DNA of 64,000 bases from positions 558,001 through 622,000 of the forward strand of contig NW_026570253.1 in NCBI RefSeq assembly GCF_019649055.1. The letters run 5' to 3'. Below are positions 38,142 to 51,424 of this stretch, piece by piece. The position numbers and the translations under genes were made by a program. Position 1 is the stretch's first letter; every line of letters begins with the position of its first letter. Under the pieces are notes generated by a model that saw only the letters and a list, made by a program, of their open reading frames with translations, searched no databases and was not told the origin of the DNA. The DNA is from Paramacrobiotus metropolitanus (taxonomy: Eukaryota; Tardigrada; Eutardigrada; Parachela; Macrobiotidae).

Positions 38142-40041
38142 TTTTGCAACAACAATCAGGGGAGAGATAATTATGTCGTAAAGATATACTCCGGGAAGCC
38201 GTCCAACTGACTCACAAGATGATCAATCGGCGCTGTTGATGTTGCACGAGGACAAAATTATTGCCGACATGCAATCATCAAGGTATAAGTCATAATAAGG
38301 GCATTATCAGCATGTAATATAAGCAGTTTCCAGGAGCCTGGAATCATGCGAACACGAAACCATACAATCACAACAACACCTTGGTAATTTGAGCAAATAC
38401 GTTAACGAGAATCAAAGAATGAGCTTTTTGATTGCGCGACAGAAAAAGATATATGGATAAAACCGCGAATTAACTTATATATATATATGTATATATATAC
38501 AAGAAATACAGTAGCACGCTTTGGCGGAATATTCTGCACCACAAAATATTACATATGACTGCCGTAGAAGTACAGTAAAGATTTTTGTGAGTCACGGTTT
38601 GCCACGAAGAAATACAAGGGTTCATGGTATAGTGCAAAATTGCGAATAACGTTAATATCTCGGCGAATCGCCCAATGGTGCACGTGTTTATGTTCATAAA
38701 GGCTGGCATAGACGCGTCCCACATGGTACTGTACGCACATAAAATTTAATGTCGATACTATACAGTAAATGAGCCGGTGCTGTGATATGGCCGCGTAGGA
38801 AATGACCACTATCAATTCGCCGGAGGGAATCTTGCAGAACGACCAAAATGGTGTTCATCTCCTACTGCTATTTGGCATAATAGTTGCTTACAATTGATAC
38901 ACAAGCGGGAAAATCGGGAAGATGAGTACCCCGAGTAACCAATTGCAATTAACAATAGTGGACATGAGTTCCAGTTCGGTGCACACCGCAAACGGCAAAA
39001 TAAAAATTCTGTCACCACGGCTGCGGTAAATGTAGAAAACGGATCAATATGGACCACAAACTATTACCACTACTTGTGTATTAATGATTACATAAATTCC
39101 CGGCACACAGTGACATTCGACATATCTAGATCTGTAATTGCCTTTACCGATAATTTATAAATCTAAGTGTTATATATGCACTGTTACAGAAACACCAATT
39201 TTTGCTTTGTCAAAGCAAAAATTGGTGTTTCTGTAACAGTGCATATACTGTATAACACTTAGACTTATAAATTATCGGTTACAAAACTTAATTCTCTGAG
39301 TGTTTGGAACGATCATGGCTAATGTTTCATCAAAACGAAAATTTATTCAAATTTGCCAGGATTAGAAGTATCGCGTTTTAAATCAATGTGGTTAATGCAA
39401 CTGCAACACTACAGATACATACGGTGTTATCGTTAGACAGTAACGACTAACGACCTTTACTTTGAGCAAACTACTGCAACTTTACCAAACCATACAAAAA
39501 TGCATTTTCACGCGAATGGTTACCGAATTGATGAGAAATTTGTTAGTTTGTCTGAAATAGAATAAATTTAAAGGTGTGATGTATTTCAGCTGCTTTCGGT
39601 TTGAACTGATGCGATTATTTTCTACTAGCCCGACAAGTTCTAATTTTAGTATTTTTGGCACCATCGCCGCGTGCAGCGCGTTTTATTAATTTCGACAGTA
39701 GCGCCGTGATGTTCCGCACCCATACTTCCGAAGTACTTTTGCTGATTGATGACGGTTTCTATCTCTTTCTTCCCGGAGGGGAGCGATTAGGAGTAAAAAT
39801 TTTCTTCTTGGTCTACATCGTTCTTGATTGCTCACGTTTACTACTGCAAATAAAGTCTGTCGACAAAACGACCGGAAAAGCTTATCACACACCATTAGAA
39901 CATTTTGTAACAAAGTATTGTTTTTTTGCACACTTGTTCTCACATTCATTGCTGCACGAAGTTTTGAGACAAAAATCGTCAAACGATAAAAAAGCACACA
40001 AGTAACTTTTTCTCACGGGCAAACACGTGCCGTAAGAAACA
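38142..40041. other. Intergenic upstream of SLC35G-like gene
   Basis: About 1.9 kb between two minus-strand genes. It contains an AT dinucleotide run at about 38476-38500 and the long inverted repeat at 39146-39279. The 39655-40005 frame begins with TTG and has no recognisable domain, so I do not call it. Confidence 0.5.
39146..39279. repeat. Long inverted repeat, 64/69-bp arms, 1-nt spacer
   Basis: The left arm 39146-39209 is the reverse complement of 39211-39279 apart from a 5-nt insertion (CTGTA) in the right arm and one substitution. The innermost 37 bp are perfect (CAAAGCAAAAATTGGTG and onwards). Transcribed, it would fold into a long hairpin with almost no loop. No target-site duplication is obvious. 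Confidence 0.95.
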
Positions 40042-40946
40042 TTAGAGAACAATGTCCACTGGTAGAACAATATCCGTTAAAGGGTCATTTTTTTCCCTTT
40101 GGCTCTCCAGGCCAACGAGTACCGGTTGGATGTTATTCGGGGCCTGGTAGACTTCCATGTGCAGGTACCGGTCAGGTCCGTAGCGTATCTGTATCAAATT
40201 TTATACATATCACTTCTGTCATCAAACTATTTAAATATCTGGCAAATAACAAATCAATAAATGATGCAATGACATACATAAATTACAAAAATGTAAACAT
40301 AAAAAATATTAAATAAAACAATAGCATACTTGTTAAAACAATCAATCGCTGAAGCTAATTACAATCCGTGTACAGTGAGCATGATGATTACAAGTGTCAA
40401 AGTATTCGTGTGCGATATTGAGAAATCCCAATGACTCATAGTAAGCGTTTAGAAAGCCAAACAGATTTCTGATAATAGATAATAGACGAGGTTGCAACTT
40501 GCTACACATATTCTGTGCACTTAATACAGTAATTTAGTGATAGCTATCTGTAGGACGAAATCTTGATGTCTCTTGAGCAGTGTTCTTGTAAGAATTGAAA
40601 TACTCCGAAACTACCAGAAAACTCATTTCTACTTGTAAAATCTCACCTTAAAAGAAGTATAAGTGGTCTCCTGTAGTTTTGACGTGACGTATTGCATAAC
40701 GGTAAATTCGGACAGGGAGCCCAATCGCATTTCCACATCCTTGCGAGCCTATTGCAGAATACCAGAGGTAGAGGTTGCATGCACCGACTGAACCGGAAAT
40801 CGTTGGTAACTTCTCATAGATGATTTGAATGCTAAATTTCACTACAGTTATAACATTAAGACACTGATCTAATCCAAAAATCATGTGTAAGAGTACTGTA
40901 CCTGGGCTGCCAGAATTTGGACTGCTGCGGGTATGGTCTGTGACAT
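40042..40946 (-). CDS. Stefin (type-1 cystatin) copy 1, degenerate inhibitory loop
   Basis: A three-exon gene of 97 aa, the usual stefin length. Minus-strand exons are 40902-40946, 40647-40748 and 40042-40188, all phase 0. There is no signal peptide or disulfide pair, so it is a cytosolic type-1 cystatin. Exon 3 carries the family's second half (RYLHMEVYQAPNNIQPVLVG then NDPLTDI), equivalent to the YMHLKVFKSLPGQNEDLVLT region of human stefin A. Where papain-binding stefins have QxVxG, this copy reads SKLQE ahead of TTYTSFK, so the essential glycine and valine are missing. The N-terminal glycine is also absent (MSQTIPAAVQ). It may no longer inhibit cathepsins. Intron positions equal those of copies 2 and 3. 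Intron 2 (40189-40646) shows nothing else. Confidence 0.85.
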
Positions 40947-44540: not shown

Positions 44541-45917
44541 TTACGCTGCATAATGAGCTACTTCGATCAGCGGATCATCGGCGGTGCGGTATCGTTCCAG
44601 CCCAACCAGGACTGGTGGACTGCCGTTGTGCTGGAAGACTTCCGCGTGTAGGTAGCGTCCGCCGCCCGCTCGAATCTGTTATACACAACGGCAATTTGTT
44701 ATACAGTGCATAGAATATAATCAGGCACACGATTACGAAATATCAACGTATATGTTCCATAAAATGTCAAATGCTACTCTCAGATGTAAGCTTCTGAGAT
44801 TTTAATTATTAACAAAATTTTATGTCATTTATAACACACATTTTCTTCAAATTGAAAATTTTAGAACGCGGTTGCCCAGTGAAAAGGTCTATTCCGCGTC
44901 CGATACGGTCCAGTAGGCTCTTAGGTTATTCTTTGAATACATATACACATTTCGCTCCACAAGCAAATGACAAAATACTGCCTAAATTATTAATAATTAA
45001 TAATTTTATTGTAGGAATAATTAAAATTTGAGTGGCTTAAAATAACCTAAGAGCCTACTGGACCGTATCGGACGCGGAATAGACCTTTTCACTGGGCAAC
45101 CGCGTTCTAAAGAGTTTTTCCGGCAGCGTTTGTCGATTCAGATTTGAAGAGGGAACACGCTGTGTGTTATGGGAAAGTTTGCCGGACATGAAAAACATTT
45201 TTTCGTTATAGCTTGTTATAATGTTTTTGTTTTATCTTTTACTTTTTGGGGGAAAAATATAATATTCACAATAGAGTAGAGAACGATAAATGAGTTGATT
45301 AGTATTCAGAAGTTGGTGAATTCGTCCGCACATCGCGTTCGTGCTTGCCTTGCTAATCTGCAAGGCAAGATCGATCCAAGACGCATACACGCCCCTAACC
45401 TTGAATGCCGTATATAAGCTTCCCTGGACATTTTGTATGCGAAATTTTTCCACAACGAATTCCTGGATGGGTCGACCACTCCGCATCATTATGCCGTCTT
45501 TGACCTGTTTTAAATTACACAAATCACCGATTTATCGTACATTCTTTTCGCATTAATGGTGCCGCACCATCGCCTCTATCAGTAATGTGTTATTGTTCAT
45601 TTGAATGATACCGAATCGTTTGCTTGCTACTGAATCGGACAGGTGGATGGCAATTAATTCATTTATTACTAATAAATACTACGTTATATATGGAGTTAGG
45701 TGATGGTCGTACAACTGTACACGGTAAAGGTGACATGCACTGTGTTGAACCCTTTGTTCAAAGGAGACAGTTACAGCGAGAATTCAGAATCTTACACTGT
45801 ACCTGTACGTCGATATCGTAATATTATTGTATTTTGCCGGACCAGCTTGCATTCAAAACATGTACGTACCTGATCCGCGAGCGCCTGCATTTCAGCCAAA
45901 GTGGGTGCGCTAGACAT
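44541..45917 (-). CDS. Stefin (type-1 cystatin) copy 2
   Basis: A three-exon gene of 95 aa on the minus strand, exons 45870-45917, 45400-45504 and 44541-44675, all phase 0. Exon 1 gives MSSAPTLAEMQALADQ. Exon 2 has the intact papain-binding loop QNVQG (IQNVQGSLYTAFK). Exon 3 gives IRAGGGRYLHAEVFQHNGSP and VLVGLERYRTADDPLIEV, the second hairpin and final strand of stefins. It should be a reversible inhibitor of cytosolic or lysosomal papain-like cathepsins, although the usual N-terminal glycine is missing. Donors are GTACGT and GTTAGG. Intron 2 (44676-45399, 724 bp) contains a perfect 71-bp inverted repeat, so the pre-mRNA would carry a long hairpin. Confidence 0.88.
44860..45111. repeat. Perfect 71-bp inverted repeat in stefin 2 intron 2
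   Basis: The arms 44860-44930 and 45041-45111 are exact reverse complements over 71 bp, separated by 110 nt of AT-rich loop. The arms are clearly richer in G+C than their surroundings. On the plus strand the right arm is open in one frame from about 45046 (PKSLLDRIGRGIDLFTGQ) and stays open past the arm to about 45147, so it may be a captured coding fragment. Perfect identity implies a recent origin, gene conversion, or an assembly artefact. Confidence 0.95.
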
Positions 45918-46779
45918 TTCGGACTGGGGAGGCGCTCTGTCGTTGACGGTTGAAATTCTGTCCTGTCCTGTCGGTTGAAATTCCAAGCGGGATCACAGTA
46001 TCCACCACAGTTTCCGGTGAATTGTTCGAAGTCCTGGAGCACTAGTTATGTTGCGTGAATGGAGCCTATTGTGTACATACTGTGGTTCATGAATTATGAT
46101 CACAGTATGTATCATATCAGTTTGGAAGGTCGTGATATCGCACGCACGGCTTTGAAGCCGGCTTCACTGATTATTTTACGAAGTTTCCATCGATTTCGCC
46201 TGAAGTGGTAAACGAGCATAAGTCCCTGCCGGCAACATGAGCTCGGCTCGCAATGGTTTGCATTTATTTATGACAGAAATGAGAAATATAGCAGATGAAT
46301 TTAACACAAATTGGATTTTTACTGATTTTATAGTATCAACATGATACATTTCTGTACAGATAAGAGTGCGATACCTATAGTTATCTTTAATTTGGAAGCT
46401 GCATAGACGGACGGAAGTACACATACTCACGTATGTCGTTCTTGTCAAGTACACAGTACTTGATCAATTTAGCGAAATATCATCAACTAAAATTTGTGGA
46501 TTCCGAATTCAGATCGATGCCACTTCAAAAGAGTTTTCGCAATCCCGTACGCATGTATCGTACGAGGACGAGCTTAGTACATATGATAGACAAAAAAACT
46601 AGCGAGAGAATCTGATAACCATGCCCGGCCCGTGCAACACGGGCAACCACCCAGGTCTGTCAGTGCTGGTAAATACATCACATTTAATACAAATAATCAC
46701 CCCAGTATTAAATACCGCACGCTTTATTTCTTACAGTAAAACTTTGACTTTGTAGAACCACATGTGAATTTCAGAGTAC
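45918..46779. other. Intergenic, upstream of stefin 2
   Basis: Holds the presumed stefin 2 promoter and the left arm of a long inverted repeat (46561-46622). No conserved frame is seen. Confidence 0.45.
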
Positions 46780-47464
46780 TCACTTTTTACCCATTCTGAA
46801 AGATTTTTTAATTTTAGTCGGAGTATTTGTCACATCGCTAAGTCCGCTACGAGTGTTTCTTTTTCGCTTATTTTTCTGCATCAGTTTTTCTGCTTCCCGT
46901 TGCTCGAGCGCTGCGATTACTTTACTGTCAGTCGCAATAAGCCCTGCTTCGGCGCGCAGATTTAAGTTTTCTCTTTTTCTGAGGACGTCGCTGGCAGGTT
47001 CCTCCACACAATTCTCACTCAACGGTAGGCCCGAAACAACGCTGATACTCGTGAAAGAAATCTCCATCGCAGGTGCAGAAAACAAACTGGCAGGTAGCCG
47101 TACGTCGGTGATATTCTCAATTTCTCATCGTAGTACATCTCGCCAGATGAATCTTTATATTTAGATGGTAATTTTATAACATTACTATCAAGAGATTGGT
47201 TAATTAATGTCAGTCACTGGTTACTGGAAATTTTGCGGAGAACCAATTATAAACAAAGTTATAAACCAAAACAAAACTCGCATTTAAATTTCAATACGAG
47301 TGTGCGTTACAGTAAATAGCAGACCGTGTTCAGCTAACGGCTGCGTGACGGCGCGCGGCTACCGCCAGCCTAAGGTGGCTGACAGTGTTGCACAGCACGC
47401 AAATGGTTATCAGATTCTCTCGCTAGTTTTTTTGTCTATCACATGTACTAAGCTCGTCCTCGTA
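46561..47464. mobile_element. Possible inverted-repeat element enclosing a small ORF
   Basis: The 62-bp segment 46561-46622 is the reverse complement of 47403-47464 with a single mismatch. Weaker similarity continues inward on both sides, around a shared GTGTTGCAC, to roughly 46660 and 47365. The left arm region also contains a small hairpin GCCCGTG-CAA-CACGGGC at about 46627-46643. The 780-bp interior holds the unidentified frame at 46780-47067. The layout fits a small DNA transposon or foldback element, but I see neither a target-site duplication nor a transposase. Confidence 0.45.
46780..47067 (-). CDS. Unidentified small basic protein or exon
   Basis: I do not recognise this frame. From the ATG at 47067 it encodes 95 aa: an acidic start, then a probable helix (VIAALEQREAEKLMQKNKRK) running into a strongly basic tail with RSGLSDVTNTPTK and ending KKSFRMGKK. 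The stop overlaps a good donor (AA then GTGAGT at 46783), and the frame is open upstream of the ATG to about 47112, so it could be an internal exon of a longer gene. It lies between the arms of the inverted repeat at 46561-47464 and between stefins 2 and 3 on the same strand. The charge pattern suggests a nuclear protein, but that is only a guess. Confidence 0.4.
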   Translation of the reverse strand: MEISFTSISVVSGLPLSENCVEEPASDVLRKRENLNLRAEAGLIATDSKVIAALEQREAEKLMQKNKRKRNTRSGLSDVTNTPTKIKKSFRMGKK

Positions 47465-47643
47465 CAGCTGCAACGCAGTTTTTTACTCGTACTTTACTAA
47501 AAGAAACACTACCCGTAGCACTGCATGCAGCAATGGTGTACTGTACAGAATCAGCAAGTGATACCCATTGCCGGCCATCGGTTATTTCATACTAACACAA
47601 ATCAGAAACGTTTCCTCTTAATGCTCAGGCGATAATAGAGCGA

Positions 47644-48290
47644 TTAATGATCAGATAGATGTGAAACTTCTGTAAGCGGGTCTTCAGCTTTTCTGTAGCG
47701 TTCCAGTCCTACCAAAACCGGAGCCGTTTCTTCGTTGGGCTGAAATACTTCCGCGTGCACAAAGCGCCCACCGCCGCCGCGAATCTGTAGACAAAAGAAT
47801 AATTTGTTTGAATTACTGCTTGTCAAGAGCAGCACATCGTCAGTCGCTACAATTGTAGATGAAACTCTGCTTATTTTATTAAACTGTGAGAATTATACAA
47901 TAATTACAACGACGTTCATCGCAAGAATTCCATTATAAGAATCAGACAAACTTACTTTGAACGAAGTGTAAATTGAGCCTTGTATTCGCTGTGACCGCGA
48001 CTGCACGACAACGTATTCCTGAAGTGCACCTGTTCGCTCTTCCACACTTGATCGCACCTGCAACCAACATCGCTATTTTTAATTACTGCATTTATACACA
48101 TGCAAGTGTCCAGTGTCCAGAACGATATGAATTGTGAACCCTGCACCAGAAACGTTCACGTTATTTCGCTACAGATTTATACCCATTCTGCTGTCCTTGA
48201 TTACGAAGTGTTAAGTAACGGTACGAATATAATTCTGTATGGCACTAGTACCTGATCGGCAATGGACTGATCTTTGCGCTGCGTCGTCAT
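47644..48290 (-). CDS. Stefin (type-1 cystatin) copy 3
   Basis: A three-exon gene of 93 aa on the minus strand, exons 48252-48290, 47956-48057 and 47644-47784, all phase 0 and at the same positions as in copies 1 and 2. Exon 1 is MTTQRKDQSIADQ. Exon 2 reads VRSSVEERTGALQEYVVVQS and then RSQRIQGSIYTSFK, so the inhibitory loop is QRIQG, a conservative V-to-I form of QxVxG. Exon 3 is IRGGGGRFVHAEVFQPNEET with VLVGLERYRKAEDPLTEV, most like copy 2. It is likely an active intracellular cathepsin inhibitor. No signal peptide is present. Confidence 0.88.
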
Positions 48291-49014: not shown

Positions 49015-51424
49015 CTACGCGCTCTTCTCAGCTGAGATCGGCTGCTGCACCACCACCAGCATCTCCCCGCCCTTGGTCCCCAGAGCCTCACGCAGGAAGG
49101 TAATAACGGCGGCCTCGTTACCGATCAGCAGGGGCGCCTTGAATTTGGAGTCCAGATTGTAGAAGACCATGCGTTTTGGCTCGCGCCCGGCGGCTGCCGG
49201 ATGGGAGGAGGGCGGCGGTGTTCCGGCCACGCTGACCGGCCGGATGCTGATCCAGTGTCGGCGTCCCAGCGGCAGTTTAAAGGAACCGATACCGTAATCG
49301 TTGGGCAGGTTCAGAATCAGCCCCACCACATTCGACAGGTCCAAGCTCGACAGGTCACTGCAACAGCGAAAAGTGCTCCAGTATCATTTAAAACACACCC
49401 CTTCCTAGGATATTACTATTCCAATCCAGGTAACTACCATCAAACAGGATCAATATAACTAAACACGATAAATACAAGGGTGACACTATTGCCAACCCAA
49501 ACACCCCCATTATTAATAGCCACCGCTTTTCCACACCCCGTTAATTATATGCACCCTTAAACAAGATTAATATAACTAAAATAGGCTAAAACACAAGTAA
49601 AACAAGATAAATATAATTTTGATCAGCTTTAATCGCAAAAGTTATCGCCAGAAGATTAATTTATTAATTATCCATATATATATTCTGTACAGTAAATGCA
49701 GCTTATCCCATTAAACATCAGACGGAGCAGTGTACCAAAACTCGTTAAATTACCACGCACAGACAATCTCTAAAATTAACAACTGAAAAGAGTAACAAGT
49801 GGAACCGCTCAGGCTATTCAGATAAACAACTCCCAGAATTCAATTAATAACATTTCAAATCTAATAACACTCGTTCAGCAGAATTCCTTATTACACTATT
49901 ATTATTACTATTCCTTATTACACGTTACACCTTACCACCATTACGATGATGCTGTGTTATTCTATACCTACTGGCATGTTTGTGACGTTAAACAATAAGA
50001 AATTTTAGTGAAGGAAGTGAATATCAAGTTAGAGAGTTTTAAAAAGACCCAAACCAAAGCAACGTGAACACTTGAACTTTAGAGGATGTTTTAAAAAATG
50101 ACTTCGGACACAGAACAACCGACAACCGCATTTCGTAAAGGCGTTGGACAAATTGATTAAAAATCAATTTGTCCAACGCCTTTACGAAATCGTTCGCAAA
50201 AGACTAAATTAAAATCAACAACCAAAAATGTGGGCCACAAAACAATCCTGCGTTTCGCCAAATCTTGAAATGTCCAGAGCTACAAGAGCCCTAGAATTCA
50301 GTCAACCAGAAGAGAGCGTGCTAATAACGCCACAGCACATCAACCACTTACTACAAGAAATCACCCGTACTCATTATGAGAAAAGAATATTTACAGAAAC
50401 AATTCCTGTTCAATTTGCATATCGTAGCCTGGAAAACTACTTATTTTTGCAAAGCCCCCGAAACACAGAGCAATCTACTGTACACACCGATTTCGTAAAT
50501 AGACAATAGTCAATACAATGGTAAATCCTAAACCTACACCAAATCGTTTTAATCCACTCACAGTTTCAGCAGAAAAGTGCAGAAATTATGCCTTCCTATA
50601 CAAGAAATAATTAATATCAATCGATGAGTTATAATACATAAGCAAGATCGTCCAGACTTCAGCGTAAGTATTTCAAAATCCCATAGGTAACACACTTATT
50701 TTGTAGAAATAAAAGAAAAACAACCTGATGATCACAAACTTAGAAAGGGTACAAAAAAAGCTGGTACACAAATCAAAATATCAACCGTTAGATCAACCGC
50801 GAAACCGTTAACAGTAAAACTGACAAAAAGCCCCCATTAAACTCACGCGGATCACAAAAGAGAGGCTGAAACTGGATTTGGCACTGATAAAGACACAAAC
50901 ACTAAGGGAAGAAAACCACAAAAAAAGATTCCTAAAATCGAGAATTCAAAGAATACAATAGATGATCAGTCTGCAATAAACTCGGACATTCTGACTGCAT
51001 CCCGTGGACGAACGTTTCTAACTGTCAATAATGTTCGTCCACGTTTCTGTGACCGTCTATAGCAAGATCACGTTTATTTACTAACAAAGCGAAACTCACT
51101 TGCGTTTATCCCACCAGATGGCTTCACAGTTGCGCGACTGGACCGCCACCATGACGACATTGACATCGTAATTCCCGAATCCGAAGAAGGATCGGTGGGG
51201 ATTCGTCCATCCCTTGGAAGGAGTCAGTCTGCACGCGCAGCAAGGTGAACAATGAGCACGCTGTCATGGATAAACGAACACACCAGCACTCACCTATCGC
51301 AGATCTCGTCTAGGGATTTCTTGGAGAAGCACGGCTCTCCGAAGAGATTGTTCAGTGCGTGCATGGCACAGAACTGCTTCACTTGATGCTCATGATACAC
51401 TTGCGGATGACTGCGTGAATCCAT
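49015..51424 (-). CDS. JOSD: Josephin-domain deubiquitinase (JOSD1/2-like)
   Basis: A three-exon, 200-aa cysteine protease that removes ubiquitin. Minus-strand exons are 51294-51424, 51100-51228 and 49015-49357, with phases 2 and 2. The catalytic cysteine is Cys19 in VKQFCAMHALNNLFGEPCF. The catalytic histidine is about residue 121 in LGRRHWISIR. The third residue lies in FYNLDSKFKAPLLIG. NPHRSFFGFGNYDVNVVMVA, then CEAIWWDKR, aligns closely with human JOSD1. Between the His strand and the LDSK segment there is an insertion of about 20 Pro/Ser/Ala-rich residues absent from the human proteins. Intron 2 (49358-51099) is 1,742 bp and contains a 29-bp perfect inverted repeat and a smaller hairpin. 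The 50228-50509 open frame inside it has no recognisable domain. Confidence 0.94.
50130..50190. repeat. Perfect 29-bp inverted repeat, 3-nt loop
   Basis: The arms 50130-50158 and 50162-50190 are exact reverse complements (ATTTCGTAAAGGCGTTGG and onwards) separated by AAA. It lies in the long Josephin intron. Confidence 0.95.
51003..51043. repeat. 11-bp inverted repeat in Josephin intron
   Basis: CGTGGACGAAC at 51003-51013 pairs with GTTCGTCCACG at 51033-51043 around a 19-nt loop, 57 bp from the exon 2 donor. Confidence 0.8.

Follow-up and report, generated by a model that had tools for sequence, protein, structure and literature searches.

A perfect 71-bp inverted repeat in a stefin intron of Paramacrobiotus metropolitanus, probably a local inverted copy of a LINE remnant

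Intron 2 of the stefin 2 gene of the tardigrade Paramacrobiotus metropolitanus contains a perfect inverted repeat with 71-bp arms, which very probably consists of the remnant of a LINE and a secondary, local inverted copy of part of this remnant made by template switch, and which would have no dedicated function. The repeat was analyzed in a window of 64,000 nucleotides, this being the whole stretch of DNA under study, and related sequences were searched in the genome (169.8 Mb in 533 contigs), which also has many matches to the tardigrade CAHS family with identities of up to 65–71%. The intron offers a clean example of how local inverted copying can turn a transposon remnant into a perfect hairpin that has no silencing function. 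The features of the locus, in positions of the window, are as follows:

45870 to 45917, minus strand: stefin 2 exon 1 (coding part), from reading frame, splice sites and genome matches
45400 to 45504, minus strand: stefin 2 exon 2, containing QNVQG, from reading frame, splice sites and genome matches
44676 to 45399, minus strand: stefin 2 intron 2, 724 nt, donor GTTAGG and acceptor AACAG, from splice-site reading
44541 to 44675, minus strand: stefin 2 exon 3 (coding part, stop codon included), from reading frame, splice sites and genome matches
44860 to 44930, no strand: left arm, inverted copy of 45041 to 45111, cut off sharply within LINE sequence at 44860
44931 to 45040, no strand: AT-rich loop of 110 nt, unique in the genome
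45041 to 45111, no strand: right arm, comprising the 5′ part of the LINE remnant and about 5–8 nt of non-LINE junction
45049 to 45240 (outer end approximate), plus strand: remnant of a non-LTR retrotransposon, consisting of the 5′-truncated 3′ end of the ORF and part of the 3′ UTR, from homology to other copies

The two arms are exact reverse complements at 71 of 71 positions and form, together with the loop, a unit of 252 bp. Exact inverted repeats in a first-order Markov simulation of the same length as the window did not exceed 12–13 nt, and the repeat is therefore not due to chance. The GC content is 49% in the arms, 25% in the loop and about 40% in the flanking 2 kb. For the minus-strand RNA, one long hairpin with a folding energy of −158.6 kcal/mol was predicted (shuffle mean −55.7; z −20). 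A perfect repeat around a 110-nt loop, arms richer in GC than their surroundings and an intronic RNA forming a long duplex had all been noted in a preliminary description of this DNA, and these points hold, the duplex as a predicted fold. Neither a second copy of the exact arm nor any match to the loop and the left flank was found elsewhere in the genome. On both strands, the Rfam search yielded nothing beyond plant miRNA hairpin families below the threshold, matches of a kind that any perfect hairpin can produce. A second inverted repeat of 24 nt with 83% identity (44787–44810 and 45016–45039) was rejected as an AT-rich chance match, since its order is not the one that an extension of the arms would have.

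The position of the repeat in intron 2 of a stefin gene, likewise stated before, was borne out by the gene structure. Exons 1–3 join in frame, the introns are of the GT-AG type, and the product comprises 95 aa. Residues 4–87 of this product matched cystatin A/stefin A in a phmmer search (E 1.9e-5), and QNVQG corresponds to the QxVxG motif of stefins. Pfam gave no match at E values up to 1; by this match and motif the host gene is a stefin (type 1 cystatin), called divergent because Pfam does not report it. Within the intron, 288 nt lie between the donor and the hairpin, and 184 nt between the hairpin and the acceptor. All six genome matches of stefin 2 lie on one contig in a local cluster. Also, a minus-strand cluster of divergent stefin genes below Pfam detection is seen in the window at 40069–40200, 44541–45917 and 47656–48060.

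The origin of the arms can be read from the sequence following them. The right arm and the sequence behind it (from about 45049) matched approximately 40 other places in the genome with 70–83% identity when the query included flanks. These matches span 45049 to 45188–45198, and homology to the 3′ UTR extends to about 45240. The remnant encodes the peptide KSLLDRIGRGIDLFTGQPRSKEFFRQRLSIQI followed by an in-frame stop, with TGA at a position where other copies have CAA. For the 33-aa arm peptide, 150 places were scored among 894 candidates, the longest open frame comprising 1005 aa, and the family has well over 100 copies in the genome; the peptide itself has no match in Pfam. At L031, a locus matching the arm peptide, an open frame of 556 aa contains RVT_1 above the curated cut-off and the reverse transcriptase (RT) motif FMDD; by eye, a CxC...HxxxC knuckle was recognized at the C-terminus, together with an RPDV...DVT stretch resembling the one in R2-type endonucleases. 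A comparison of the RT region with the PDB yielded only weak matches to R2 proteins (E 0.09–0.7), and the ORF had no match in NCBIfam. On this homology, the source of the arms is a non-LTR retrotransposon (LINE), probably of the R2-like kind, to judge from the RVT_1 domain, the weak RT matches to R2 proteins and the zinc-knuckle/endonuclease-like C-terminus seen by eye. Compared with R2-like elements, all that is left in the window is a 3′ end of about 190 bp, 5′-truncated and with an in-frame stop. The earlier impression that one frame of the arms looks coding is thus correct with respect to ancestry, the frame being a fragment of a retrotransposon ORF. In a separate observation, the same LINE 3′ end starts at nearly the same ORF position in another locus (L026, just upstream of locus position 1505), where an AT-rich inverted repeat (AAACGGTAATTTAAATTT...AAATTTAAATTACCGTTT) lies in front of it.

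The order of copying is indicated by the ends of the arms. Past 45111, the LINE sequence continues from the right arm, whereas on the left arm the LINE homology ends exactly at 44860. At their inner ends, both arms share AATAACCT before the LINE homology begins, at a place where longer copies have GGCGCG or similar; therefore, the insertion junction itself was copied. Since the right arm alone continues into the LINE and the junction is repeated, these boundaries show the left arm to be a local inverted copy of the right arm, made when the present 5′ junction of the LINE fragment already existed. Furthermore, the arms are 100% identical to each other, while the LINE remnant differs from other copies by about 17–26%, so that either the insertion preceded the copying or the arms were homogenized afterwards.

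The comparison of the junctions thus shows the pattern of a template switch, namely a reverse-complement copy of a neighboring segment whose ends are abrupt, and an arm that runs on into the surroundings of the source. We propose that a 5′-truncated remnant of a non-LTR retrotransposon was present in intron 2 at about 45049–45240, and that faulty copying of DNA nearby, most likely by a short-range template switch in replication or break repair, would have written a 71-nt reverse-complement copy of the first part of the remnant and its junction 110 bp upstream. Perfect arms would thereby arise in one step, and the pre-mRNA should fold as a 71-bp hairpin and then leave with the intron. It is documented that a single template switch can produce a perfect stem (PMC8794818). 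The mutations described by Monttinen and Loytynoja in that study resemble the present case in being perfect one-step reverse-complement copies of a nearby segment, although the 71 bp found here exceed the 59 bp of the largest pattern of this kind reported there. A template switch is most likely the actual event, and the hairpin is most probably neutral without a dedicated function. Gene conversion between the arms or polishing of the assembly with reads could also contribute to the perfect identity.

The preliminary description had compared the repeat with hairpin RNA (hpRNA) loci making siRNAs against a homologous gene. On this reading, the spliced-out intron or its pre-mRNA would be diced to siRNAs silencing homologous LINE or host-gene transcripts. 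The locus does have a long, perfect inverted repeat that could be transcribed, as seen in sequence and predicted fold; its predicted duplex of 71 bp, the genome matches to a Dicer dimerization domain and to ADAR deaminase domains, the descent of the arms from a many-copy LINE family, and an exact run of 22 nt common to the arm and a degenerate copy (L015, C192:113318) are in favor of such a function. However, the search of the whole genome for a source or target gene, suggested earlier as a check, found no host gene matching the arms and no exact copy, but only LINE copies with about 74–83% identity to the arms. Among the LINE copies read, exact runs are mostly 8–12 nt long, with exceptions of 19 nt (L007) and the 22 nt already mentioned. 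The arms are short, an orthologue is not known, perfect hairpins have a far larger source in this genome (a palindromic element family with 1,622 candidate places), and Drosophila-like piRNAs were reported in the tardigrade Hypsibius dujardini (PMC4323106). Because no close match to the arms was found among genes or LINE copies, it is very unlikely that the repeat is a dedicated hpRNA locus directed against a homologous gene. This part of the preliminary description is therefore not supported, the arms being a LINE remnant and not a host gene, with no close target, and local inverted duplication being sufficient as an explanation. Drosophila hpRNA loci (e.g., PMC10292708, PMC10317233) share with the stefin intron a long intramolecular RNA duplex and homology to other genomic copies, but their endo-siRNAs suppress defined targets, whereas here an intronic LINE remnant lacks a close match. 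A variant in which the stefin 2 intron acts as a young siRNA source against the R2-like LINE family, captured by inverted duplication, is highly improbable; if true, a tardigrade hpRNA locus would be seen here early in its formation. Since the genome matches Dicer dimerization and ADAR deaminase domains, it is possible that one of these enzymes acts on the duplex of the pre-mRNA.

Other explanations of the repeat are also unlikely to differing degrees. In a twin-primed (5′-inverted) LINE insertion, which we regard as very unlikely, an inverted LINE piece adjoins a sense-oriented 3′ piece, as is seen here. Twin priming links neighboring stretches of the RNA that hardly overlap, whereas the same 71 nt are present twice in the intron, both times with the non-LINE bases of the junction, and the two copies are separated by 110 nt of unique sequence. 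An assembly artefact, i.e. a fold-back chimera or an effect of polishing, is very unlikely. The published assembly that the genome matches, of Paramacrobiotus sp. TYO, was built from Nanopore reads with Illumina polishing (PMC8277472), which can homogenize short repeats, and rare differences between the arms could be lost in this way. However, the 252-bp unit is located within one gene with normal exons on both sides, it is easily spanned by long reads at 45x coverage, and an internal 71-bp repeat between unique flanks is not what a fold-back chimera would be expected to produce. Finally, perfect terminal arms, outer ends TTTA...TAAA that can be read as a TA target duplication, and real elements with terminal inverted repeats (TIRs) nearby would suit a non-autonomous DNA transposon (MITE/TIR) with 71-bp terminal repeats. 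Such an element would be expected in several copies bounded by the same terminal repeats, but this one is a single locus in the genome, its arms are LINE coding sequence, and the LINE homology crosses 45111 instead of stopping at an element end. The single copy and the homology across the outer end led us to exclude a TIR element, the probability of which is extremely small.

The preferred origin, a LINE remnant copied locally in inverted orientation, is consistent with what was seen in other parts of the genome. A sample of 244 kb, made up of the window and 180 kb taken from elsewhere in the genome, contained five exact inverted repeats with arms no shorter than 30 bp and a spacer of at most 1 kb, the one in the stefin intron being the longest. 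An exact inverted repeat of 93 bp with a spacer of 147 nt was present in L031, among 3-kb LINE loci that are not a random sample. This repeat is part of a nearly fully palindromic element of about 430 bp (L031, positions 1920–2350), which has 1,622 candidate places in the genome and copies about 90–98% identical; it is likely a major source of dsRNA in this genome. Because perfect inverted repeats with short spacers recur and this large palindromic family exists, the perfect hairpin is nothing special in this genome. The stefin 2 locus alone offers nothing new and looks like an ordinary by-product of mutation. In a desiccation-tolerant animal, the many perfect short-spacer inverted repeats may merit a systematic count.

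Structures of this type were also noticed elsewhere in the window. A perfect near-palindrome of 37+1+37 is located at 39173–39247, and at 50130–50190 two perfectly inverted 29-bp arms are separated by 3 nt. Between two stefin genes, at 46560–47465, lies an element of about 905 bp with terminal inverted repeats of about 92 bp, which shows 97–100% identity to several other full-length copies. Some matches to this element are spaced over about 2.67 kb (e.g., C115:378182-380844 and C106:44078-46745), which suggests longer, possibly autonomous copies of it.
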